Of a DNA stretch of 64,000 nucleotides, positions 1,013 through 63,574 are shown one piece after another. The stretch is from Pleurocapsales cyanobacterium LEGE 10410 (GTDB taxonomy: Bacteria; Cyanobacteriota; Cyanobacteriia; Cyanobacteriales; Xenococcaceae), in assembly GCA_015207195.1 (NCBI GenBank), contig JADEXJ010000005.1, positions 1 through 64,000 of the forward strand. The letters run 5' to 3'. Position numbers and translations under genes: made by a program. The notes below the pieces were generated by a model. That model was not told the origin of the DNA, did not search any database, and was given only the letters and a program-made list of their open reading frames with translations. The first letter of the stretch is position 1; each line of letters opens with the position of its first letter.

Positions 1013-1419
1013 AAAACTCTCAAACCTTATTAGAAACAGCATAGCGCAGGTTGGGGTGTCCTGATGAGCGTTGCCGAACGAGTGATATTGTACAAAGAAC
1101 TACGGTTTGTAACTCTTAGTTTTTAAAAGAAAGCGGATCTGGGAAAAGACCAAAAAATGTCTCATGCCATTACAATTTGGCAACGCCTAGTAAAGCGATC
1201 GCATTGTCATCAAAAAAGTCAAGTCGATCTATATATTCTTAACAATAAATAGCCTGGTTTGAACTCTTTTACTCAAAGAATTACGATTCAACCACGATTA
1301 ATTCCCCAACAAAAATATCTGCCAAAATGGCAACATTGATCTTAAATTTATTTCTACACTTGTTAGTAACAACAAATAAAGGTTGTTGTAAGCATAATTC
1401 TTTGACAAGGAGAAGATAG
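1013..1419. other. Spacer containing the promoter region of the leader-peptide gene
   Basis: Apart from the palindrome at 1320-1332 and HIP1 sites there is no gene here. A looser TGCCA...TGGCAAC pair with an 8-nt spacer lies near 1165-1184; it may be a decayed second site or chance. Confidence 0.5.
1320..1332 (+). promoter_or_regulatory. Palindromic operator-like site TGCCA-AAA-TGGCA
   Basis: The sense strand reads CTGCCAAAATGGCAAC, 87 nt before the ATG of the double-glycine peptide gene. The same oriented 16-mer pattern occurs upstream of three other genes in this window, at 4322, 5507 and 7024. After this site the sequence CAACAT...ATTTATTTnTAC is also shared with the 5507 site. The palindrome suggests a dimeric regulator; the regulator is unknown. 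Confidence 0.65.
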
Positions 1420-1752
1420 ATGAAAATTTCCAATCTTAATTATCTAGAAGTTGTTAGTACCGAAACTGGAAACGCACTTGCTGGTGGTGGTGATATTGCT
1501 TTCAACATTGCTAAAGACGTTAATCTTAATAAGGTAGTTACCCTCGATATTGACAAAGTTGTTGACGTAAACGTAAATAATCCCGATCAGTTAGCTACTG
1601 CTGAAGCTGACGCGGAAGCCTTTGGTATTTATGCTTTAGCTGAAACCGATGCTTATACTTACGTTACCGAACAAGAAGCATTCTCTTACAGTGAATCTAC
1701 TGCTGCTCTGGACTTGAATCCAGGTGTTGACAATGGAGTAACACCTGCTTAA
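1420..1752 (+). CDS. Small exported peptide with double-glycine leader
   Basis: This is a 110-residue protein. Residues 1-23 look like a bacteriocin-type leader (INxLxYLExVSxE...) ending in Gly22-Gly23, the cleavage signal read by C39 peptidase exporters. The predicted mature part begins GDIAFNI and is acidic, with repeated alternating Asn/Asp/Val motifs, then DAEAFG, ALAETDA and a C-terminal FSYxESTAALDLN block. The same blocks recur in the protein at 4519-5415. A good ribosome site (AAGGAG, 7 nt before ATG) supports the start. The C39 exporter at 7124-10288 is the obvious candidate processor. Whether it is a bacteriocin, a signal or a surface protein cannot be told. Confidence 0.8.
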   Translation: MKISNLNYLEVVSTETGNALAGGGDIAFNIAKDVNLNKVVTLDIDKVVDVNVNNPDQLATAEADAEAFGIYALAETDAYTYVTEQEAFSYSESTAALDLNPGVDNGVTPA

Positions 1753-2038
1753 TTGGCTAATATTAGGTACTAATACTTCAATCGATCCTGAAACTTTACC
1801 TTAATTTGATTTATAGTTTCAGAGTAATAGTAAGCTAATTAATAGCACAATTGTTCACTTTTGCTTTTACAACAAAATCTGTCTGAGACAACAATTGAAA
1901 ACGGTATTGAGATAAACTTGCTGGAGGCTTAAACAATTAACAAGCTTTCAGCAAATTTATTATCTAAATTATCTTGGTAATTGTCTTAGTACGATTGAAA
2001 AATATCGAAATATATGTTTTCCAAGCATAAAGTTTGTC

Positions 2039-2785
2039 ATGATTAATTCCTGGGTAATACCAATCGAATCAGAAGAGATTATAAATTTTCTTAAACAAGA
2101 AATGCTCTTAAAGGGAATTTGTAAGAAAATTCTTTATCAAAAAATAATTGAATCAGCTGCTAAAAAACATCAGATTGCGATCGCGCCAGAAGAAATTCAA
2201 ACCGAAGCAGACAACATTCGTCACCAAAAACGCCTAGAAAACGCCAACGATACTTTCGCCTGGCTGAAAGAAGAAATGGTAACTCCCCAGGAATGGGAAG
2301 CGGGAATTATCAATCGTCTGCTAGCGCAAAAATTAGCCAAACACCTGTTTGAAAAAGAGGTAGAGCCGTATTTTGCGCAAAATCGTTTGGATTTTGACCA
2401 GTTTGTTCTCTATCAAATTGTTGTCCTAGATCGTCAACTAGCTCAAGAAATTTACTATCAAATAGAAGAAGAAGAAATTAGTTTTTATCAAGCTGCTCAT
2501 CTCTACGATCTTGACGAACAACGCAGATATCATTGTGGTTACAAAGGAAAAATTGGTCGTTGGAACTTGCCCCCACGCCTTGCCGAAGCTATTGGGAATG
2601 CTAGCATCAAACAAGTTATCGAACCGATCGCCATCCCACAAGGACAAGTAGAAGAATATCATCTTTTGATGGTCGAAAAATTTATTCCCGCCGAATTAAC
2701 TCCCGAAAGACATCAATACATTATCGAGCGTCTGTTTAAAAAGTGGCTCGAAAGCGAGTTTGATTCCCTAGTTCACAACCATTAA
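2039..2785 (+). CDS. SurA/parvulin-type peptidyl-prolyl cis-trans isomerase
   Basis: The protein has 248 residues: an N-terminal helical SurA-like segment (about 15-115), then a parvulin-like rotamase region (about 120-240) with the GxIGRWNLPPRLAEAI stretch. It has no signal peptide, so it is probably cytoplasmic. Proteins of this type often lie beside cyanobacterial HlyD/C39-ABC export genes, where they may keep substrates export-competent; here it sits between a leader-peptide gene and an RTX gene. The palindrome found before the candidate substrates is absent, and no clear ribosome site precedes the ATG. Confidence 0.75.
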   Translation: MINSWVIPIESEEIINFLKQEMLLKGICKKILYQKIIESAAKKHQIAIAPEEIQTEADNIRHQKRLENANDTFAWLKEEMVTPQEWEAGIINRLLAQKLAKHLFEKEVEPYFAQNRLDFDQFVLYQIVVLDRQLAQEIYYQIEEEEISFYQAAHLYDLDEQRRYHCGYKGKIGRWNLPPRLAEAIGNASIKQVIEPIAIPQGQVEEYHLLMVEKFIPAELTPERHQYIIERLFKKWLESEFDSLVHNH

Positions 2786-2807
2786 TTAGTAACGCTTCGC
2801 TTAAGTA

Positions 2808-2849
2808 GTGAGTAGGGAGTAGGGAGTAGGGAGTAGGGAGTAGGGAGTA
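2808..2849 (+). repeat. Heptanucleotide tandem repeat (gggagta)
   Basis: Five perfect copies of gggagta (2815-2849) follow one degenerate copy (gtgagta, 2808-2814). Heptamer arrays of this kind (STRR-like) are known in cyanobacterial spacers. It lies between the convergent ends of the isomerase and RTX genes. Confidence 0.9.
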
Positions 2850-2863
2850 GTAAGTCCGAACTC

Positions 2864-4252
2864 TTATATAACCGTAAAGTCAGCAGCACTGATGATTGGA
2901 ATGTTTTGCAAAGTGGCAAACTGTCCTCCCAAGCCAAATCCACTGTCAAAACCGTTTTGATTATAAAATAAATTACCAGTATCACTACTGTAGGTAATAA
3001 CAGCCTCGCTTACCCCAGCAAGCGAATCGGTAGCTACTACTTCAAATTCAGTAGCACTTATTGATTCACCCGTAGTGCTAGTAAGAGCAACAAAGGTTGT
3101 CTGGCTGAGAACAATTTTATCTCGATCAACTTCAAAGTCAGTAATTACATCTTTTCCGATCTCAGCAAATTCTAAAGCTCCATTGTAGGAAAAGCGATCT
3201 GCGTTAAAGCCTCCTGTGAGGGTATCATTCCCCCTACCACCATGAAGAAGATCTTCACCGTTACTACCGTTTAATAGATCGTTGCCCACACCTCCTCTGA
3301 GTAAGTCATCACCGTTACTACCGTTTAACAAATCGTCTCCAGTACCACCTTCGAGGAGATCGTCCCCATTGCTAGCATTTAAGGTATCATTGCCATAGCC
3401 ACCCTCAAGGGTATCATCACCGTTACCTCCAAAAACAAGATCGTCCCCATATCCAGCTAGCAGAAGATCATTACCATTCTTAGCAAAGATAACGTCGTCC
3501 CCCAAACTGGCATAAAACCTGTCGTCTTCTCGTGTTCCAAACCAAGTGTCGTCCCAAAGTGTACCATAGACAAAATCCGCACCCAAATTACCAATTTGAG
3601 AATCTGCCAACCATTCCACGGAACTTTGATTGACCATCAAGAGGGTGAGATTGGTATCGCGGTCAAAAGCGCGCTCATAAGTACCCCGCGCTGTATGGGA
3701 AATTAGATCGACATCATTGTTACCATCAATATCGATGTGGCGATCGCGATCGCTCAAGCTAAAATTAGGGCTAAAATAGACCTCCAAACCGCCAATTTGC
3801 TCGGACGAGACTAAATACGCCCAAAGATCGGCGTAGTCCACAACCTCAATATTATCAAGATCGGTAGTGTCTAGGAGCAGAAATTGAACGTTCAACTCCC
3901 CTTGGCTATATTCAGCCTCAGGAGCTTCGATTTCCTTAGCCTCTAGTAAAATATCTCCCAACCAATCAAAGGAGAAAGTGTCACCTTCTTCGACCGCAAA
4001 ACTAGCAACAACTCGCGCATCACTGGCAGCACTTCCTTCTGAAATTTCTCGACCATAGCCATTACTTTCGGTTAACAAGCCAGATAGATCGGAGTTATAA
4101 AAGAAAGCTTCCGCCTCAGCACCGCCAATGGTTTCACCACTTTCAACTATAGTAAGAGCGTCGGTATCGGTCTCGGTTGCTAAAGGAGCATGACTATAGT
4201 TGGAAAAAACAACATCGCCCAGTACGTCAACATAATTATCATGATCAAGCAT
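2864..4252 (-). CDS. RTX (hemolysin-type calcium-binding repeat) protein
   Basis: A 462-residue acidic protein. About 230 N-terminal residues have no family I recognise. Then come repeated GGxGxDxL nonapeptides (about 235-340) that form a calcium-binding beta-roll, and a C-terminal region (about 345-462) like those of type I secretion substrates. No Cys-rich or catalytic motif is visible. The N-terminus contains LATETDTDA and AEAEAFFY, faintly like the LATxExDAEAF block of the two leader-peptide-family proteins nearby. It has the same palindrome upstream (4322-4334). It is probably exported by the HlyD/ABC system here, or by another type I system with a TolC partner elsewhere. Confidence 0.85.
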   Translation of the reverse strand: MLDHDNYVDVLGDVVFSNYSHAPLATETDTDALTIVESGETIGGAEAEAFFYNSDLSGLLTESNGYGREISEGSAASDARVVASFAVEEGDTFSFDWLGDILLEAKEIEAPEAEYSQGELNVQFLLLDTTDLDNIEVVDYADLWAYLVSSEQIGGLEVYFSPNFSLSDRDRHIDIDGNNDVDLISHTARGTYERAFDRDTNLTLLMVNQSSVEWLADSQIGNLGADFVYGTLWDDTWFGTREDDRFYASLGDDVIFAKNGNDLLLAGYGDDLVFGGNGDDTLEGGYGNDTLNASNGDDLLEGGTGDDLLNGSNGDDLLRGGVGNDLLNGSNGEDLLHGGRGNDTLTGGFNADRFSYNGALEFAEIGKDVITDFEVDRDKIVLSQTTFVALTSTTGESISATEFEVVATDSLAGVSEAVITYSSDTGNLFYNQNGFDSGFGLGGQFATLQNIPIISAADFTVI

Positions 4253-4518
4253 ATCTCACCCGCCTAAATATAATTAATCGGGGATTATCCAGTATTTTTA
4301 ACGCTTCTGAGACATTGATGTTGCCATTTTGGCGAGTTTCTTTGATTATCTAAAGAAGGTCTGATTACCCTAGCTTATTTATCTGGTTATCAGAGAACTG
4401 GATTGATAATACTGGCGATCGCCTGGCAAACAAATAATTGCCTGTTGGAAAACCCCTTGATAGACAAATAGCGATCGCGATTTTGGAAAGTTGTCCCGTA
4501 GAATCTCTATATCGGCTG
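4253..4518. other. Spacer between RTX gene and leaderless paralogue
   Basis: This spacer holds the RTX gene's upstream region, including the palindrome at 4322. Open frames on either strand here are overlaps of the neighbouring gene and carry no recognisable protein. Confidence 0.5.
4322..4334 (-). promoter_or_regulatory. Palindromic operator-like site (CGCCA-AAA-TGGCA on sense strand)
   Basis: Sense reading for the RTX gene is TCGCCAAAATGGCAACAT, 69 nt before its ATG. It has one mismatch in the left half-site relative to the other three copies and the same orientation relative to the gene. Confidence 0.6.
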
Positions 4519-5415
4519 CTATACCAGGTTTCCACCATCGCCATTGAGGTCGAGAGCAGCAGTAGATTCACCATAAGAGAATGCTTCCCCTTCACCAGGA
4601 ATCGGCGGAACAGCACCACCAAAATTACTGGCAGCCTCGAAAGCCCAATCACCAGTTGCTCCAATTTGAAGACTTTCAAACTCGGTAACAAAACCAGTAG
4701 TTGGATAATCCACTCCATCAAAAGTAAAGAAACCTGGATTGTCCGCTGCAAATCCTTCAAAGATGACTTCAATCTCTGGACCAGGAGGGGAGAAATCAGC
4801 CAAGAATAGGCTACCTTCTGGTACAGTAAACAGTAGTTCGTCGGTAGTTTCTGTTCCATCACCATCAAGGTCAAGCGTTCTTTCCCCGAAGTTTACTACC
4901 CAATCGGCGTCGTTAGTATATAGGCCTTCTACCAGGGGTTCGATAATCTCCCCTGTCTGAGTAAGATTTAAATCTGTAACAGAAAGCAGAGGATCTGGTA
5001 GGGGCGTATCCTGCCCAGGTGGTGGTGCGCTCAAACTAGCTAACGAGCCAAAGCCGTTGATATCATCTACGTCTGGTGGGGGGTCACCCGCCGAGTCAAA
5101 CACGATCTCAATCGTGTCTGCTAACTCGTCATCGTCATCTCCGTCATCCCCGATAACTAAGTCGTCGATATTACCCAGAACGTCAATCGAACCAGGATTG
5201 AGTACGGGTTCGCCAGGTTCTCCAGGTTCGCTGTTAACGTAAGTAAAAGCATCAGTTTCAGCTAAGGCATTTTCACCAAAAGCTTCGGCATCAGTTTCAG
5301 AAGTAGCCAGCAGATCTTCATTGTCTACGTTGGCGTTAACATTCTTGTCGATTTGCAGATTAACATTTTTGTTGAGATCGACATTTTTCTCAATATTAAA
5401 ATTAATGTCACCCAT
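4519..5415 (-). CDS. Leaderless long paralogue of the double-glycine peptide
   Basis: The start is ATG 5415, preceded by AAGGAG. An in-frame TAA lies just upstream, so no leader can be encoded in this frame. The first residues after Met (GDINFNI) align exactly with the predicted mature start of the 1420-1752 peptide, and homology continues through LATSETDAEAFG and ALAETDAFTYV. The C-terminal FSYGESTAALDLN block also matches. Between these shared ends lies an insertion of roughly 190 residues, acidic and Pro/Gly-rich, with EFESLQIGATGDWAFEA. That insertion has no family I can name, but its composition suits an extracellular beta-rich domain. The protein has 298 residues. How it would be exported without a leader is unclear. 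Confidence 0.75.
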   Translation of the reverse strand: MGDINFNIEKNVDLNKNVNLQIDKNVNANVDNEDLLATSETDAEAFGENALAETDAFTYVNSEPGEPGEPVLNPGSIDVLGNIDDLVIGDDGDDDDELADTIEIVFDSAGDPPPDVDDINGFGSLASLSAPPPGQDTPLPDPLLSVTDLNLTQTGEIIEPLVEGLYTNDADWVVNFGERTLDLDGDGTETTDELLFTVPEGSLFLADFSPPGPEIEVIFEGFAADNPGFFTFDGVDYPTTGFVTEFESLQIGATGDWAFEAASNFGGAVPPIPGEGEAFSYGESTAALDLNGDGGNLV

Positions 5416-5827
5416 GGTTTTTCTCCTTGGTTTCAATAATTAATTCATGGCAACGATTTAAAACTATCGTTACCATAAATAGTAAAAATAAATGTCAGTA
5501 ATATGTTGCCAAACTGGCAGAAATATTTGTTGATAATTAATGCCAGCAAATTACTTGTACATCACCGTTTACAGTCAGCGACATACTCAAAAAAGATTAA
5601 AGGTTAAAGAGTAAAAAATAAAGGTCTACTAAAAAATCGAAAATTCTTCTTATTACTTTTATAATTGTTATCAAAAAGCAAGTTTCTTTGCTTGAAGACG
5701 CAAGAAGCTTATTTGTTCAGGTCGTTTGCTTGCCAAAAATTTAGAAAGATTAATTTTTAATCTGGACTTTTATATTCGTAACCAGCAACTCGATCAATAT
5801 AATCAATAATCAACAAAAAACGCTATA
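5416..5827. other. Spacer: upstream region of the leaderless paralogue
   Basis: About 410 bases without a gene. The only structured signal is the palindrome at 5507-5519. The rest is AT-rich. Confidence 0.5.
5507..5519 (-). promoter_or_regulatory. Palindromic operator-like site TGCCA-GTT-TGGCA (sense strand)
   Basis: Sense reading is CTGCCAGTTTGGCAACAT, 91 nt before ATG 5415, nearly the same distance as in the 1420 gene (87 nt). Flanking bases ACAAAtAT and ATTTATTTnTAC are also shared with the 1320 site. Confidence 0.65.
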
Positions 5828-6829
5828 TCAACTAGCCGAACTAAAAACATTTCCAGCTATGAGACTAGCAGCATCTATTCCTAAGACAGCACCAATCAAA
5901 TCATCATTAAAGAAAATTAGCGCGTTGCCACTAGCATCTACCCCAAAATCATAGCCTTCCTGGTTATTGGCATTAAGCTGAATTGTATCCACACCAATCT
6001 CTAAGTCTTGAATTAGAGCATAATCTGCTGCACCATCTCCGAGATAAAAAACATTGTCCACATCTCCCAAGACAAATGTATCTGCCTCTCCTTCCCCCAC
6101 TAAAATATCTATTTCTCCAGTTGACGTTCCACCACTTCCACCAGTAAGAGTATCATTACCAGCACCACCAAAGAGAGTGTCATTTTCTGTACCTCCATCG
6201 AGTAGATCGTTGTCGTTACCGCCACTGAGTTGATCAAATCCCCCCGCACCCATAAGTTCGTCGTTACCGTCTTCTCCTAAGAGGAGGTCATTTCCTGCAA
6301 CCCCATTGAGTGAGTCATCCCCCGTACCTCCTGATAACTGATCGTCACCTCGGTTGCCATTGAGGACATCATTGTCAGCACCGCCAAACAGCAGATCGTT
6401 TCCTAAACCAGCATATAGTTCATCATTACCGTTACCACCAAAGAGAAGATCGTCATCTCTACCGCCATTGAGAGAATCATCACCATCGCCACCAGACAAT
6501 TGATCCATACCGTCATTCCCAAATAGGGAATCATTACCGATGCCCCCGTCTAATTCATCATTGTCATCACCGCCAAAAATCAGGTCGTTTCCCACTCCTC
6601 CATTTAAAGTATCTTGTCCTTCCTCTCCTTGAAGGAAGTCATCTCCATCTAAACCAGATATTAGATCGTTGCCTTCCTCACTGCGAATAATGTCTTCAGC
6701 TAAAGTTCCCTCTAATACATCATCTCCTTCGGTAGTTGCCAAAGAATCTCGCAGGCTTTCTCTAGAAGTTGTTTCTTGACTGGCTTCACGTCTTGCAGTA
6801 ATTGTTGCTCCTGGTGTGTAGGTTGCCAT
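5828..6829 (-). CDS. RTX calcium-binding repeat protein
   Basis: A 333-residue acidic protein. After a 35-residue N-terminus come about 20 tandem GGxGNDxLxGG-type nonapeptides (about 36-235), a long beta-roll. A 90-residue C-terminal region follows (DTFVLGD... LIQDLEIGVDTIQL...), of the kind seen at the end of many cyanobacterial RTX proteins and type I secretion substrates. GGAG stands about 12 nt before the ATG. The same palindrome is found 194 nt upstream. No enzymatic domain is seen; a structural or surface role is likely. Confidence 0.88.
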   Translation of the reverse strand: MATYTPGATITARREASQETTSRESLRDSLATTEGDDVLEGTLAEDIIRSEEGNDLISGLDGDDFLQGEEGQDTLNGGVGNDLIFGGDDNDELDGGIGNDSLFGNDGMDQLSGGDGDDSLNGGRDDDLLFGGNGNDELYAGLGNDLLFGGADNDVLNGNRGDDQLSGGTGDDSLNGVAGNDLLLGEDGNDELMGAGGFDQLSGGNDNDLLDGGTENDTLFGGAGNDTLTGGSGGTSTGEIDILVGEGEADTFVLGDVDNVFYLGDGAADYALIQDLEIGVDTIQLNANNQEGYDFGVDASGNALIFFNDDLIGAVLGIDAASLIAGNVFSSAS

Positions 6830-7023
6830 AGATTATATCTCCTAATTTTTCGATAAATCTGGTCATCTGGTCGCGTATTACAGCACTAATTTGTCCTCAT
6901 TTGGCGATCGAGAATAATTCTGGTTGTTACTAGAACCAATCCAGGCTCAATGCCTGATGCAATAACGTTCTTCAAAAACATCCGCTACACCGTTAACGAT
7001 AGTAGAGTAGAGTTGCTTATGGT

Positions 7024-7036
7024 TGCCAATATGGCA
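7024..7036 (-). promoter_or_regulatory. Palindromic operator-like site TGCCA-TAT-TGGCA (sense strand)
   Basis: Sense reading is CTGCCATATTGGCAAC, upstream of the RTX gene that starts at 6829 and in the same orientation as the other three copies. At 194 nt before the ATG it is further out than in the other genes. Confidence 0.6.
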
Positions 7037-7080
7037 GTTTTTTAAATCAAAGCGAGGTTAGACAACAACTCCAAACTCCC

Positions 7081-7123: not shown

Positions 7124-10100
7124 CTAAATATCCAATTGTTGTTTGGCGAGATGGTAATAAAGACCGTGTTGAGCAATTAGTTCTTCGTGAATGCCTTGTT
7201 CGACAACAATGCCTCGATCCAATACGAGGATGCAGTCTGCATTACGCACGGTGGAAAAACGATGGGCAATGATAAAAGTCGTACATTCCTGACTGATACG
7301 CCCTAAGTTATGCTGAAATCTGCTTTCTGATTCAGTATCGAGAGAACTAGTTGCTTCGTCTAAAATTAAAATTCGCGGTTCTCCTAATAAGGCGCGAGCG
7401 ATCGCAATTCGCTGTCTTTGTCCCCCAGAAAGGGTCGAACCCCGTTCTCCGACTTTGGTATTATATCCCAAGGGCATGGCTTGAATAAAACCATGAGCCT
7501 CCGCTAGTTTGGCAGCCTCGATCGCCTGTTCTAAATCAAATTCGGGTCGGTATAGGGTGATGTTTTCTAAGATCGTTCCCGAAAACAAAAAGCAGTCTTG
7601 GGGTACAACACCTATTTGCGATCGCAATGAGACGGGAGAGACGTGCTGGATATCGTGACCGTCGATCCAGATTCGACCGTTAGTCGGGTAATATAAGCCC
7701 TGTAATAATTTGACTAGGGTACTTTTACCCGAACCACTACGACCAACTATAGCCAAAGTTTGTCCTGGGGTGACTGTAAACGAAATGTTTTGCAGTACGT
7801 TGCGTTCTTCTTCCGTGTCATAGCGGAAAGTGACGTTTTCGCAGCGGACATCACCCCGTAATTCTGGGAGGACGAGCATTTGCTTGGTGGGGGATTCTTC
7901 TTGTTCGGTGTCAAAGACATCATTGAGTCTTTCTACGGAAATCAAGACTTCTTGCAGTTCGTCCCACAGACCAACCAAGGCAATTACAGGACTGATAATA
8001 TGACCCTTCATCATGTTAAATGCCACAAACTGACCGATAGTTAGCTGGTCTTGGATGACTAAGGTTGCACCGTACCACAACAAAGCCGTTCCTCCAATGG
8101 AGTTGATCAGTCCGCTGAGGAGTCCCAAATTAATTGCCAGCTTTTGACCTTTAAAGCGCACGTTGATCTGATGGGTTAACAAATCTTCCCAACGCCAGCG
8201 TACTTCTTTTTCGGCTGCTACTGATTTGACCGTGGCGATTCCCGAAATCATTTCCACCAAAGAAGAATTTTGGTCGGCTGCTGCGCTAAATCTTTCTCTC
8301 GACAGCTTGCGTAATAGGGGGGTTGCTACCAAAGTCAAAATTATAATCGGCGGAATTAATCCTAAAACCAGCAAAGTCAGTTTCCAGTTGTAATAGAGCA
8401 TCAACCCCAAATAGACAAAGCCCGTGACGAAGTTTAACCACGACAACAAAACTTGTCCCAATAAAAATCGCTGAATCTTGGAGTTTTCTCCTACCCTAGT
8501 GGTGATGTCTCCCACCCGACGGGATTCAAAAAACTTGAGAGGTAAAGTTATGGTGTGGTTAATAAAACTACTAACCATAGTTAGGTTAATTCGGTTGGAA
8601 AAATAACTCAGCAAATAGTTACGAGTTGCCGACAAACCCATCCCCCACAGACCAAACAACAATGCTCCAATGACAAAAACATTTAGGGTGCTTTGACTTT
8701 TATTTACGACTATTTGGTCGAGGATAATCTGGGTAAATAGAGGGGAGACAATCCCAAAAACTTGAATCAAGATCGACAGGCTGATAATTTGCCAGATTAG
8801 TTTGCGATAGGGTAAAAGTAACTTAAAAAATTTACCCAAAGAACGTTTTTCATCGGGGGTTTGATAGAGACGCTCAGTAGGATCGAGCAAGATAGCGTAT
8901 CCCGTCCAGCCAACGAGAAATTCTTGACGAGATAAAATACGTTTTCCCTTAGCAGGATCGGCGACCAAAAGGCGATCGCCCTTAACCCAATAGACGACCG
9001 CGTAATGATTGCCTTCCCAGTGAGCAATCCAGGGGTTGGTCTGTTCTGCCAGACGGTTTAGACTAGCTCGTACGGGGCGAGCATGATAGCCGATGTTTTC
9101 GGCTGCTTTGGTTAAACCTTTGAGGGAAATACCAGTACGTCCAATTCCTGCCAGCCTGCGGAGATAATTGACCGTAAAACGTTTGCCCCAATACTGACTA
9201 ATCATTGCCAAGCAAGCAACCCCACAGTCAGAGGAGCTTTGTTGCCCGATAAACGGATAGCGTCGCCCAAATGAAGTCTGCTTGAATTTTGGTTGAGGAA
9301 AGTCAATCTCGGGAGGATCGGGCTTAACTGTAGTGGGGAGTGAAACCTGCGTCTGAAGGTCGGTAATTATCGATTCTGGGCGATCGCGGGGGGTAAAAAC
9401 TATAGTGTTGGTTTCGTCCTCACTATCCGCTGTTGCGCCACCGTTGGTATAAACATCGGCAAAAGAAGGAATGAGCCGACACACGGTTTCCCAATGTTGT
9501 TTGGGTAGATGATAGACCTTTAGATCTGTTTGAGCTACCCAATCATCGGCAATAGCATCGGGATATCCCCAAGCCGAACCAATATTCACCGAGCAGTCGC
9601 CAATTTCCCCCTGACAAAGCCAACAGCGGTCTAGATCAGTCTCGGCTAGAGTCGTTCCCGCAGCAAGGTGACGTTCTTCAAGATAGGGCAGAAGCTGCTG
9701 TAGTTTGTGACTGGAAAGAGAGCGCAGAGCAGTCAGGGTTTTAAAAAAGATTAAGCCCTGGCGTTTTTGAGTTTCCCTACGCCAGTGTTGTTGAAATTGT
9801 GGTGATATTGACCAACGGTCAGAGCAGGCTCCGTCGTTGTACGGCGGAGTAATCTCTGACTCCAGCTGTAATTTTTCCAGGGGAATTCTGGCAACTCGTA
9901 CTTTGCTTTCTGCTGCGATCGCCCGATAAGATAAGTATTGGCGATCGAATAGGGGTTCGCTACCAAAAGTGTTTCCTTCAGTGAGTAACCCCGTGGGAAC
10001 TTCTCGCTGGAGTTCTGGATCGCAACTCAACAGTCGTACTCGTCCCTGACAAATTAGATAGAAAAACTCGGTCGAATTAGTCGAAGCTATATCATCTATT

Positions 10101-10288
10101 AAATCTCCTAGCTCGAATTCTAAAATTTTCCAATATTGAATTAAAGGTTGCAAAAACAATTTACTTTTAGCATCGATCTTTAATTGCTTCTCTAAGGGCA
10201 AAATCAGCAGATCGAGCTTGTTTCGATTTGGAGGCTTGTGTTGCCCGTCAGCAATAGACTGAACGGAAGTATTTTGATGTGTATTCAT
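7124..10288 (-). CDS. hetC-like: HetC-like C39 peptidase/ABC exporter with cyclic-nucleotide-binding-like region
   Basis: This 1054-residue inner-membrane exporter has the layout of HetC. Residues about 40-280 resemble one or two degenerate cyclic-nucleotide-binding folds. C39 peptidase: about 345-470, with Cys355 (SDCGVACL), His428 (NHYAVV) and Asp444 (ADPAKG), so the triad is intact. Transmembrane domain: about 495-780. ATPase: Walker A GRSGSGKST (849-857), signature LSGGQ (953-957), Walker B LILDEA (974-979), H-loop His1009. The family cleaves double-glycine leaders and exports the product with an HlyD adaptor and an outer-membrane channel. It lies downstream of the hetP-like and hlyD-like genes on the same strand, 557 nt from the hetP-like stop. 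No strong ribosome site precedes the ATG. Confidence 0.9.
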   Translation of the reverse strand: MNTHQNTSVQSIADGQHKPPNRNKLDLLILPLEKQLKIDAKSKLFLQPLIQYWKILEFELGDLIDDIASTNSTEFFYLICQGRVRLLSCDPELQREVPTGLLTEGNTFGSEPLFDRQYLSYRAIAAESKVRVARIPLEKLQLESEITPPYNDGACSDRWSISPQFQQHWRRETQKRQGLIFFKTLTALRSLSSHKLQQLLPYLEERHLAAGTTLAETDLDRCWLCQGEIGDCSVNIGSAWGYPDAIADDWVAQTDLKVYHLPKQHWETVCRLIPSFADVYTNGGATADSEDETNTIVFTPRDRPESIITDLQTQVSLPTTVKPDPPEIDFPQPKFKQTSFGRRYPFIGQQSSSDCGVACLAMISQYWGKRFTVNYLRRLAGIGRTGISLKGLTKAAENIGYHARPVRASLNRLAEQTNPWIAHWEGNHYAVVYWVKGDRLLVADPAKGKRILSRQEFLVGWTGYAILLDPTERLYQTPDEKRSLGKFFKLLLPYRKLIWQIISLSILIQVFGIVSPLFTQIILDQIVVNKSQSTLNVFVIGALLFGLWGMGLSATRNYLLSYFSNRINLTMVSSFINHTITLPLKFFESRRVGDITTRVGENSKIQRFLLGQVLLSWLNFVTGFVYLGLMLYYNWKLTLLVLGLIPPIIILTLVATPLLRKLSRERFSAAADQNSSLVEMISGIATVKSVAAEKEVRWRWEDLLTHQINVRFKGQKLAINLGLLSGLINSIGGTALLWYGATLVIQDQLTIGQFVAFNMMKGHIISPVIALVGLWDELQEVLISVERLNDVFDTEQEESPTKQMLVLPELRGDVRCENVTFRYDTEEERNVLQNISFTVTPGQTLAIVGRSGSGKSTLVKLLQGLYYPTNGRIWIDGHDIQHVSPVSLRSQIGVVPQDCFLFSGTILENITLYRPEFDLEQAIEAAKLAEAHGFIQAMPLGYNTKVGERGSTLSGGQRQRIAIARALLGEPRILILDEATSSLDTESESRFQHNLGRISQECTTFIIAHRFSTVRNADCILVLDRGIVVEQGIHEELIAQHGLYYHLAKQQLDI

Positions 10289-10711: not shown

Positions 10712-11155
10712 CTAAGCTGCTAGAGCTAAACGAACCGCTGAAAAATCAAACTCATCTTCAGCTAAAACCCAATCAGATAGATAAGTCCTATTACCCCCAT
10801 GTAGCTGTTTTTCTTCCCGCGAGACAGTTTCCAAGTAACTGAGATCGTTAATTTGATAAGAAGATTTGTTTGAAGCTGATTTTGCTGCCTTAACTGCCAG
10901 GCAGTCTCGATCTTGTTGGCTCAAGCTATCTGTCACTGGTCGCTCTGAAGCATTTTGTTGAGCATGGCTTTTCATCAAGCGATTATAGGTTCGATAGGGA
11001 ATATAGTGTAGCGGATTATATCCAGCAAAGCGCAACATCAAGACACAAGCCCAGGAATACTTACCCGCCAAAATTGCTGCGACAATGCGATCGAATTTAC
11101 TAGATTCCATTACTTCGTCAAGTTTAGTTTCCGAATTCACTAAGTGCTGATTCAT
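10712..11155 (-). CDS. hetP-like: HetP-like protein with a double-glycine-leader-like segment near its C-terminus
   Basis: The chosen start at 11155 (MNQHLVNSE) follows GAGGAAATG and gives 147 residues; an upstream start at 11203 would add 16. Residues about 22-63 hold the HetP signature: [21 protein letters not shown] followed by [13 protein letters not shown]. In Anabaena, hetP lies next to hetC and commits cells to heterocyst formation. Residues 102-121 read [20 protein letters not shown], very close to the leader of the 1420 peptide, and are followed by a 26-residue acidic tail (NRTYLSDW...). The C39 exporter gene is next downstream. Whether cleavage occurs at the GG is an open question. 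Confidence 0.85.
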
Positions 11156-11287: not shown

Positions 11288-12925
11288 TTAAATTTCCATT
11301 CCGTCTTGCTGTAATTTTTTAATCGGCTCTAGCCAAACATCCAGAATGCGACGACGGCGAATTACGATATCGGCGGTAGCTGTTTGACCTGCTTTGAACT
11401 TAATCTTTTGTCGATTTTCAGTAATATGGTCCCGCTTTAGTGCAACTTCTACCTGATAAACTTCTCCTAATTGAGAATCGTCTTTGGCATCGGCAGAAAG
11501 ATGGGTTACTTCACCAGAAATCAGACCGTAATACTGGTAGGGATAGGCATCCAATTTTACCTGTACTGGCATCCCTTCCTCAATAAATCCTGCTTCAGAG
11601 TTAAGTATGCTTGCTGAAAGAATTAGGGGAGCTGCAATGGGTGCTATTTCCACTACAGTTTCACCAGCTTGAACGACTTTACCAGCATTATCCACGTTGA
11701 GTGATAAGACAACACCATCTACGGGGGCTTTCAGCGATTTTTGTTGCAGCTTAACTTTGGCACTGGATAATAAGTTTTGGGTATCGACAACTTTACTTTC
11801 TATTTGAGCTAGTTCAAATTCTAGTTGCTCAATTTTTTGTTGAGTTTCTAGCTGAGTTCTCTTCCCATCGGCTTGTTTTTGAATTAACTCTGCTTCTAGC
11901 ATCTTAATCTCTTTTAGGGTGGTAGCCAATTCCCCCTGATTACTTGTAATCTGAGACTCAAGTTCTCCCCTAGCTCGATCCGATTGAAATATTTGTTCGT
12001 TAGCAGTAGTAACTTCTTGGAGTTGGCTTTGAGTAACTTGTCTTTGGGCTTCACGCAGAGATTGTTCTACTTGAAAAACGTATTCTTGAGATACTGCCCC
12101 TTGTTCAGCTAGGGTTGCCAGCTTGTCCAAACGCTGTTGACGAGAGACTATTTCGGTGTTTAGTTGATTTAAACGTTCTCGCGCCAAGTTGGAAAGTGGT
12201 CTTAAGTTAATTTGCCTGTCAGCATAGGCTGTGACTTCCCCTTGCTTTTGAGCTAACAAACGACTAAGGGTGTCTACTTTATCTTTAGCTAGGGAAATTG
12301 CCGTGCGTTGGGCGGACACTTCCGCATTAGTAATATCCTCTCTAGTTTTAGCTTCTAATGCTAGTTGTTCTCGCAAAGCTCGTTTTTGACCAAATTCAAA
12401 TCGATAGGCTTGAAGCATCTGTTCGAGTCGTGCAACTTCTTTGGTTACTAGCTCGGTATCCAACTCGATTAAAGTTTGTCCTGCTTTGACTTCTTGCGCT
12501 TCTCGGACGGCGATATATTTAACCTTACCAATTTCTACTGGTTCGACTTTATAAGTTTTACCTTGAGGAATTAGTTTGCCTTGGGCTTTGCTCACCTCGT
12601 CAATTTTCCCCCACCACGACCAAGCAAAAAATACGAGACAAAAACTCATTGCCCCCAGAGTAACGAGCTGAGAAAAACGGGGCGGTGGTTCTTCTAAAAG
12701 TTGATTTAAAGTAGGAGACCAATGGGAAGTCTGAGTTGTGGCAAGATCGATAGAAGTTACGGTATTTAAGGAAGCTGAATTTGGTGTTACTGAGACGAGG
12801 TTGCTCCCTGGTGAATTGAGCTTCGTTACTTCTGTTGAAGAAGATTCTGAACCATCTTGGTTCTGTGCAGCAATATCTCCAGCTTCTCTCCTAGAAATAG
12901 TAGATGCTGAGTTGAAAAAATTCAT
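11288..12925 (-). CDS. HlyD-family membrane fusion (adaptor) protein
   Basis: A 545-residue periplasmic adaptor for a type I exporter. It has an unusually long Ser/Thr-rich cytoplasmic N-terminus of about 80 residues, one membrane segment (about 86-105), a first half-lipoyl segment, and a long Gln/Glu/Leu coiled-coil hairpin (about 150-390). The second half-lipoyl segment (LKAPVDGVVLSLNVDNAGKVV) and a beta-barrel domain follow. It is first in the hlyD-hetP-hetC order on one strand, and should link the ABC exporter to a TolC-like channel that is not in this window. Confidence 0.9.
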   Translation of the reverse strand: MNFFNSASTISRREAGDIAAQNQDGSESSSTEVTKLNSPGSNLVSVTPNSASLNTVTSIDLATTQTSHWSPTLNQLLEEPPPRFSQLVTLGAMSFCLVFFAWSWWGKIDEVSKAQGKLIPQGKTYKVEPVEIGKVKYIAVREAQEVKAGQTLIELDTELVTKEVARLEQMLQAYRFEFGQKRALREQLALEAKTREDITNAEVSAQRTAISLAKDKVDTLSRLLAQKQGEVTAYADRQINLRPLSNLARERLNQLNTEIVSRQQRLDKLATLAEQGAVSQEYVFQVEQSLREAQRQVTQSQLQEVTTANEQIFQSDRARGELESQITSNQGELATTLKEIKMLEAELIQKQADGKRTQLETQQKIEQLEFELAQIESKVVDTQNLLSSAKVKLQQKSLKAPVDGVVLSLNVDNAGKVVQAGETVVEIAPIAAPLILSASILNSEAGFIEEGMPVQVKLDAYPYQYYGLISGEVTHLSADAKDDSQLGEVYQVEVALKRDHITENRQKIKFKAGQTATADIVIRRRRILDVWLEPIKKLQQDGMEI

Positions 12926-63031: not shown

Positions 63032-63574
63032 CTATTGATTCTCTGCGCCAACAGCAATTAAATGTTGACGTACTAATTGCTCAAACTGATATAGATAGGC
63101 GACACATACCAAACGAATCAACATCAAAGGTGTAAAAAAATTATTCATTCCCTGCCACCAAGCAGCCATTTCAGAAAAATAATGATTAGGGGAGAATATG
63201 ATGATGCCAATTGCAGTACTAATAATCATAGTTAAGGCGATCGCCAGCCAACCATACAACCCTTCCCACCAACTCATTAAACCAGGAAACCAAAACTTGC
63301 GTAGGGACATTTCTGGAGTTTGAATGTCAGGGGCAAACAAATCCAGACAGATATGTAATAAATTGTGGGCGATCGCAATGACGACTATAGGCGATAAAAT
63401 AACCGCTAAATAAAGCAGAATATAGCTTTGATATGATAGCGAACTAAATACGTCATAATCAATACGCTCTAAAATCTCTTTGAGTACAAATTTCATTCCT
63501 CGTACTAGTAATAAGAGTAGAATTGCGCTCATCCAAGCATTAAAACTAGGTATCCAGGGTGGCAGGTTTTTCAT
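63032..63574 (-). CDS. Integral membrane protein of unknown function
   Basis: A 180-residue protein with about four membrane helices (about 13-30, 50-75, 108-130, 146-165) and Trp-rich loops. No family recognised. It converges on the kinase gene with 34 nt between the stops. Confidence 0.65.
   Translation of the reverse strand: MKNLPPWIPSFNAWMSAILLLLLVRGMKFVLKEILERIDYDVFSSLSYQSYILLYLAVILSPIVVIAIAHNLLHICLDLFAPDIQTPEMSLRKFWFPGLMSWWEGLYGWLAIALTMIISTAIGIIIFSPNHYFSEMAAWWQGMNNFFTPLMLIRLVCVAYLYQFEQLVRQHLIAVGAENQ

Follow-up and report, generated by a model that had tools for sequence, protein, structure and literature searches.

We describe a palindrome, CTGCCANNNTGGCAAC, that recurs before genes for exported proteins in a 64,000-nucleotide stretch of Pleurocapsales cyanobacterium LEGE 10410 (contig JADEXJ010000005.1, positions 1 to 64,000; hereafter the window). 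The palindrome is probably the operator of an activator-dependent promoter that serves the substrates of HetC/HetP-type exporters. A sequence-only reading of the window had noticed the element and attributed it to a dedicated regulator or a special promoter. That attribution is supported in the host family, where the intergenic copies stand mostly before export-substrate genes and a −10-like hexamer follows at one fixed distance.

Placement of the palindrome and layout of the predicted promoter

Exact copies of CTGCCANNNTGGCAAC occur three times in the 6.64-Mb host genome, all at this locus, where about 0.09 would be expected from base composition, and the reversed pattern has no exact match in that genome (G000). 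With one mismatch allowed, the whole genome holds 13 matches versus 7 for the reversed pattern, and single-mismatch copies elsewhere in the genome are therefore mostly background. The core palindrome, TGCCANNNTGGCA, is found at seven places, three at the locus and the other four inside open reading frames (ORFs), two of which appeared pentapeptide-repeat-like on manual reading. Within the window, five matches with up to two mismatches were obtained versus 0.76 expected, and none of 100 shuffles gave five; the fifth of these, a two-mismatch match at 63550, is distant from the target genes. A chance origin was rejected on the basis of the window shuffles, the genome-wide exact count, the composition expectation and the placement of the core palindromes. 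The complete-genome search that the sequence-only reading had called for thus found exact copies confined to the locus, not random unrelated positions, the other core palindromes being coding.

The copies in the window were said to number four, one of them with a single mismatch. Three are exact, and each points toward its own gene, as had been stated (Table 1), whereas the fourth, TCGCCAAAATGGCAAC, departs from the motif at two fixed bases (TCGCCA). The same degenerate variant precedes a related RTX gene of a relative (G026, L040). The flanking bases shared by the copies at the two paralogous target genes were also found here. The isomerase, hlyD, hetP-like and transporter genes had been described as lacking the motif, and the window scan indeed showed no match before any of them; the statement that the export machinery lacks the site is nonetheless true locally only, and fails in relatives, as PpiC carries its own site in two genomes of the host genus (G003 and G008) and most HetP loci have a core palindrome downstream of hetP (see below).

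The pattern TGCCANNNTGGCAAC gave 76 sites in 27 genomes of the host family, versus 12 for the reversed pattern. An ORF rule assigned 53 of these sites to intergenic and 23 to coding sequence, with two places in L094 assigned to the intergenic group by hand. Manual reading showed that 45 of the 53 intergenic sites precede cassette or substrate genes, namely 34 double-glycine peptide genes, 7 leaderless genes (one a fragment), 2 RTX genes and 2 PpiC genes. A plain pattern script found the targets of 35 of the 53 (29 double-glycine and 6 leaderless); the ten others consist of five double-glycine genes and the leaderless fragment, which the script missed, and the two RTX and two PpiC genes, which fall outside its patterns. 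In one genome (G014), eight consecutive sites each precede a peptide gene of their own.

The downstream sequence was left unconstrained in this search, and a TANNNT hexamer starts exactly 20 nt past the motif at 41 of the 53 intergenic sites, the next-best offset being shared by 7 of 53. At the coding sites the hexamer is found at offset 20 in only 1 of 23, and copies in coding regions were rejected as regulon members on that ground. No conserved −35 hexamer was detected between site and −10 among the family's intergenic sites, where column information is low except at the two positions that immediately follow the motif. Seven bases before the palindrome, an A is conserved in 46 of 52 non-redundant sites. 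Two relatives (L029 and L035) carry three imperfect copies 30–36 bp apart, the nearest of which lies 20 nt from TATAAT. If the hexamer at the fixed offset of 20 is the −10 element, then the center of the palindrome lies near −41, and a center at that position without a −35 box points to an activator-type architecture, in which the activator would occupy the −35 region.

Class II activator promoters of the NtcA/CRP type have a palindrome near −41 and a TANNNT hexamer about 22 nt after the conserved half-site, and they lack a −35 element. The sites described here likewise combine a two-fold symmetric operator, centered near −41, with a predicted TANNNT −10 at a fixed distance, about 22 nt from the half-site, and have no consensus −35 hexamer, but they differ in their odd-length form, TGCCA-N3-TGGCA. 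The NtcA operator consensus is GTA-N8-TAC and that of the CRP type is TGTGA-N6-TCACA; in our sites, which were selected for TGCCA...TGGCAAC, mostly C, A or T precedes TGCCA and no GTA-N8-TAC register was seen. A σ54 promoter reads TGGCAC-N5-TTGC at −24/−12; no conserved TTGC follows TGGCAAC here, and the σ70-type TANNNT at offset 20 is conserved instead. A LysR-type box is a T-N11-A dyad with a LysR gene nearby. The palindrome has the T-N11-A form; no regulator gene is regularly found beside the sites of the clustered loci.

We propose that a dimeric activator would bind TTGCCANNNTGGCAA about 41 bp upstream of the transcription start, taking the place of the −35 box, and that the predicted −10 hexamer TANNNT would then follow at a fixed 20 nt. 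The activator would switch on the substrates of the HetC-like exporter, that is, double-glycine peptides, leaderless paralogues and RTX proteins, sometimes also PpiC and, in one family (f33), a structured RNA. The site, its constant distance from a −10-like hexamer, its targets and its spread are observed here, and the start, activation as the sign of the control and the identity of the protein are inferred.

Spread among cyanobacteria and a structured RNA

The site together with its −10 was found in 107 of 291 genomes of the host order (reversed control, 2 of 291) and, in a class-wide draw, in 46 of 291 genomes, of which 25 lie beyond the host order (reversed control, 3 of 291). Thirty order loci, among the matches listed, included 16 with a double-glycine ORF downstream and one each with a Nif11-leader-like precursor, an RTX gene, a PpiC gene and a gene for a helix-turn-helix (HTH) protein; the other ten are taken up below. 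A leader-peptide-like ORF lies downstream at all nine of the loci read from outside the host order (L209–L217). Some genomes have the site before a precursor gene that adjoins an MvdD-type ATP-grasp gene, and at one locus a graspetide-like precursor after the site (L381:9527-9829) lies beside such a gene (8149-9051). Two genomes that lack HetP show an interrupted ATP-grasp frame (L380) and the loss of the precursor (L379), respectively.

In f33, most sites precede no ORF; what follows them is a conserved stretch some 160 bases long, with a terminator-like hairpin at its end. A C-rich loop and the terminator-like hairpin are present at L193–L199, L201–L204, L218–L231 and L238–L265, except L246 and L253, which were the ones lacking the RNA features among the 41 f33 site places examined; L200, L205 and L206 were left out because they precede protein genes or other sequence. 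RNAalifold, run on 23 of the 28 non-redundant sequences, gave 32 pairs, 15 of which show at least one double-sided pair-keeping change, with a small covariation term (−2.02 of −29.75 kcal/mol). A covariance model recovered 41 copies of the RNA in 26 of the 291 order genomes, all of them in f33 and none in the host genome, and no Rfam match at the gathering score was obtained at 13 loci. The site in f33 appears mostly to drive this structured RNA. With PpiC and a non-coding RNA among its members, the regulon extends beyond secreted proteins. At several loci of heterocystous genera (L318, L320, L330, L339, L312 and others), manual reading showed the site downstream of hetP, followed by what may be a decayed double-glycine peptide gene and by a hairpin whose loop is C-rich.

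HetP as a candidate reader of the site

ORFs were clustered for 95 loci of 58 genomes, a set that is biased because the loci were mostly fetched around sites. PpiC was present in 47 of the 58 genomes and HetP in 35, with counts of 39 for both the transporter and HlyD. Among the genes listed, no regulator gene regularly accompanies the sites in this set; a generic response-regulator cluster is present in 7 of the 58 genomes, with distances of 905 to 4933 nt to the closest core palindrome, and was not counted as linked. For this reason, 80 HetP loci were fetched by the protein alone (the best 80 of 360 relatives), 72 of which contain the 1.5 kb downstream of hetP. Within that distance, 59 of the 80 loci hold 62 core palindromes, 40 of which have a −10 at offset 20 in the direction of hetP and none in the opposite direction. 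The rest of the 1.4 Mb of these loci contains 31 core palindromes, of which 7 have a −10 when both directions are counted; the reversed pattern was matched once in the 1.4 Mb. In several genera, a palindrome copy lies inside hetP or starts right after the HetP domain (L305:8752, L360:10193; G057, G097, G129, G120).

Across the 291 order genomes, HetP and the site occur together in 100, the site only in 7, HetP only in 19 and neither in 165 (odds ratio 124, shared ancestry ignored), and HetP, present in 100 of 107 site-positive genomes, shows the best co-occurrence with the site among the gene families tested. The corresponding counts for PpiC are 73, 34, 18 and 166 at E 1e-50, and 96, 11, 62 and 122 at 1e-20; PpiC was rejected as a better correlate since its stricter table is worse than that of HetP. 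The site and HetP occur without PpiC (E 1e-50) in 28 genomes, and the reverse in one, and membership in the cassette therefore cannot alone explain the link to HetP. Outside the order, HetP was found in 23 of 25 genomes counted as site-positive by pattern match, versus 13 of 55 site-negative genomes, which were hand-picked.

The seven site-positive order genomes without HetP were traced individually. Four are coding hits (G012, G043, G140 and G190, the last with one of its two hits examined), and three have a lost or damaged target, as judged after the fact: the precursor is gone in G195, no peptide gene was found in G268, and G278 has an intact precursor but an interrupted ATP-grasp frame. 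Among the 19 genomes with HetP only, four were inspected; G009, G185 and G240 have a site whose −10 is one base off or which ends in TGGCAAA, and G034 has none in the stretch read.

An IS630-like HTH protein, encoded downstream of the site at L135, was considered as a universal regulator and rejected, with 87 genomes having both, 20 the site only, 93 the HTH protein only and 91 neither (odds ratio 4.3). The host genome has only a weak match to this family (1.3e-6), and a profile comparison between the HetP domain and the IS630-like HTH protein revealed no relation. IS630-like HTH proteins (L160–L189) carry a C-terminal xIxIxDL motif that resembles the start of a peptide leader, in 26 of 27 parsed versus 41 of 227 tails of other ORFs, and three of their genes (L160, L161 and L180) have an exact core palindrome immediately before them.

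The HetP-like protein of the window belongs to the HetP family, scoring above the curated cut-off of 45 bits (Table 1). In its tail, D, L, Y, E and GG are conserved in 90% or more of 47 aligned sequences, which comprise the window protein and 46 of its 54 non-redundant relatives, and the pattern D[LI]..E..GG occurs in 65 of the 80 HetP loci. AlphaFold models of the domain have three helices (block pLDDT 75–94 for residues 11–70, or 81–88 in a second model), and the full-length model has a disordered tail, a predicted layout that an HTH protein could have.

The HetP-like cassette protein is the best-supported candidate for the regulator that reads the palindrome, and its leader-like tail at the C terminus may couple it to the exporter; we suggest this tentatively and consider it less likely than not. 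The tail would copy the leader element DLxYLE..GG by which substrates would dock on the C39 exporter, and the exporter could hold or cut the HetP regulator, so that peptide production would be matched to export capacity.

The locus, known systems and alternative explanations

The features of the window are collected in Table 1. The double-glycine peptide matched nothing in Pfam or NCBIfam at E 0.01, and homologues were found in 8 of 60 genomes, the host genome included. The leaderless paralogue starts at the point where the leader of this peptide would be cleaved. The locus has the components of a group II bacteriocin cluster, namely a C39 transporter with an N-terminal extension, HlyD, PpiC/SurA and a HetP-like protein with DLxYLE..GG. 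At two other loci, HlyD-type adaptors (L237:474-2453 and L232:1553-3310) carry, by manual reading, a response-regulator receiver domain at the N terminus, and a double-glycine-like motif, for example EAARIYGGVA, is found in the N-terminal regions of HlyD at L220, L226, L278, L294 and L296.

Table 1. Palindrome copies, predicted −10 hexamers and genes in the window
Feature	Position	Strand	Remarks
Palindrome, exact copy	1319..1334	+	Upstream of double-glycine peptide gene; ATG starts 85 nt past motif
Predicted −10 hexamer TACACT	1355..1360	+	20 nt past palindrome (match 1320-1360)
Double-glycine leader peptide, 110 aa	1420..1752	+	MKISNLNYLEVV...LAGGG
PpiC-type peptidyl-prolyl isomerase	2039..2785	+	Profile matches
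RTX repeat protein, 462 aa	2864..4252	-	PF00353
Degenerate palindrome copy TCGCCAAAATGGCAAC	4320..4335	-	2 mismatches; ATG of RTX gene 67 nt past motif; no TANNNT at offset 20
Leaderless paralogue	4519..5415	-	MGDINFNIEKNVDLNK...; 65% identity to residues 24-86 of double-glycine peptide
Predicted −10 hexamer TACTAT	5479..5484	-	20 nt past palindrome (match 5479-5519)
Palindrome, exact copy	5505..5520	-	Upstream of leaderless paralogue; ATG starts 89 nt past motif
RTX repeat protein, 333 aa	5828..6829	-	PF00353
Predicted −10 hexamer TATCGT	6996..7001	-	20 nt past palindrome (match 6996-7036)
Palindrome, exact copy	7022..7037	-	Upstream of second RTX gene (5828..6829); ATG starts 192 nt past motif
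Peptidase C39 ABC transporter with cyclic-nucleotide-binding domain (HetC-like)	7124..10288	-	Profile matches
HetP-like protein, candidate regulator	10712..11155	-	C-terminal leader-like DLSYLE..GG; NF037966, 112.4 bits
HlyD-type adaptor	11288..12925	-	Profile matches

HetP-type exporter clusters with double-glycine precursors are already known (PMC3140520). The group II bacteriocin clusters of Wang et al. (2011), as presented in the portions of that paper available to us, contain a long C39 transporter, HlyD, a SurA/rotamase, double-glycine precursors and a HetP-like protein with KIxDLxYLEx10GG (PMC3140520), and the window cluster matches them in transporter, HlyD, isomerase, precursors and HetP-like protein. 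The words "promoter" and "RTX" each occur zero times in the main text of that paper, and those portions describe no promoter element. Searches of the open-access literature listed no description of the palindrome element. The locus also resembles hetC-hetP-patC of Nostoc/Anabaena PCC 7120, where, according to the parts of the reports at hand, a C39 exporter with a cyclic-nucleotide-binding domain lies beside hetP and a small-peptide gene (PMC4133259, PMC10986499). Work on that locus, however, has dealt with the control of heterocysts together with PatS and HetN, and the palindrome is not mentioned in those parts. Over-expressed hetP compensates for defective hetC in Anabaena (PMC4133259), and the substrate of the HetC exporter is described as not known (PMC10986499). 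Both a regulator carrying a substrate-like tail and a HetP that is a mere substrate would be consistent with these data. A further likeness is to the EbfG/PteB biofilm system of Synechococcus elongatus, in which, from the text available, double-glycine small proteins are co-transcribed and depend on a C39 transporter to be secreted efficiently (PMC4997328, PMC9260433); the mechanism of its regulation was called unknown in 2016 (PMC4997328).

Several observations weigh against an activator-dependent promoter read by the HetP-like protein. The −10 is predicted from a sequence match, and the degenerate fourth copy in the window has no such hexamer at offset 20. Eight of the 53 intergenic family sites have other genes or none downstream, and one of the 45 counted as targets is a fragment only. 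Likewise, 10 of the 30 order loci, among the matches listed, have no gene of the kinds named above downstream, at least three of them being coding hits. With respect to HetP, 7 of the 107 site-positive order genomes have no HetP, and outside the order G432 and G529 have the site without it, the latter with six near-identical hits resembling a repeat. In G057, G097 and G129, the only site, among the matches listed, starts right after the HetP domain, and these genomes are therefore uninformative apart from hetP itself. The counts are not corrected for phylogeny, and because the co-occurrence tables ignore shared ancestry their p-values overstate the case. The HetP domain has no Pfam or PDB sequence match, and neither the HetP-like protein nor its domain gave a significant fold match in Foldseek/VIA (best VIA Z 2.8 and 2.1), a result with which a known fold is still compatible. 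The leader-like motif in HetP has been reported before, in the accessible part of PMC3140520, where HetP was proposed to be a precursor and export substrate.

One could envision the same activator-type promoter being read by a factor encoded elsewhere in the genome (CRP/NtcA-like, GntR, LuxR or other), with HetP a cargo or exporter helper inherited with the cassette, and we give this explanation an even chance. HetP shows no detectable relation to any DNA-binding family, a substrate would be expected to have such a leader-like tail (PMC3140520, in the part available), and the three HetP-less order genomes with a damaged or lost target keep an intergenic site, one of them (G278) together with an intact precursor gene. 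The 28 genomes that have the site and HetP without PpiC, versus one of the reverse, argue against it, as does the lack of a regulator gene regularly beside the sites in the 95 clustered loci, although an unlinked regulator would be invisible to that test.

The fixed spacing and orientation would also be expected if an alternative sigma factor recognized the promoter and the palindrome served as its −35 region. We think that this is improbable, given that the conserved part is a two-fold symmetric 13–15-mer that suits a dimer, that the −10 is of the ordinary TANNNT kind, and that the three imperfect copies in L029 and L035 are 30–36 bp apart with the nearest at the usual distance. Very little speaks for mobile or structural DNA elements, or copies left by gene duplication, without regulatory meaning: two of the target genes are paralogues whose copies share flanking bases, but the site and its spacing are common to RTX, PpiC, peptide and RNA genes, whose flanks differ, and the site persists across genera and orders, by which this explanation is strongly disfavored. 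We regard an RNA hairpin in the 5′ leader as equally improbable. The sequence allows a 5-bp stem with a 3-base loop, but the palindrome lies upstream of the conserved −10 hexamer and would therefore not be transcribed from that promoter.

The operator of an activator-dependent promoter remains the reading we prefer. The site offers a handle on the control of double-glycine exported peptides in cyanobacteria, and with it, sequence alone suffices to predict members of the regulon in many genomes, including a conserved RNA without an Rfam match. It also points to one candidate function for HetP. If that function is true, then HetP, which is needed for heterocysts, would gain a molecular job, and the pairing of hetC with hetP would be explained.

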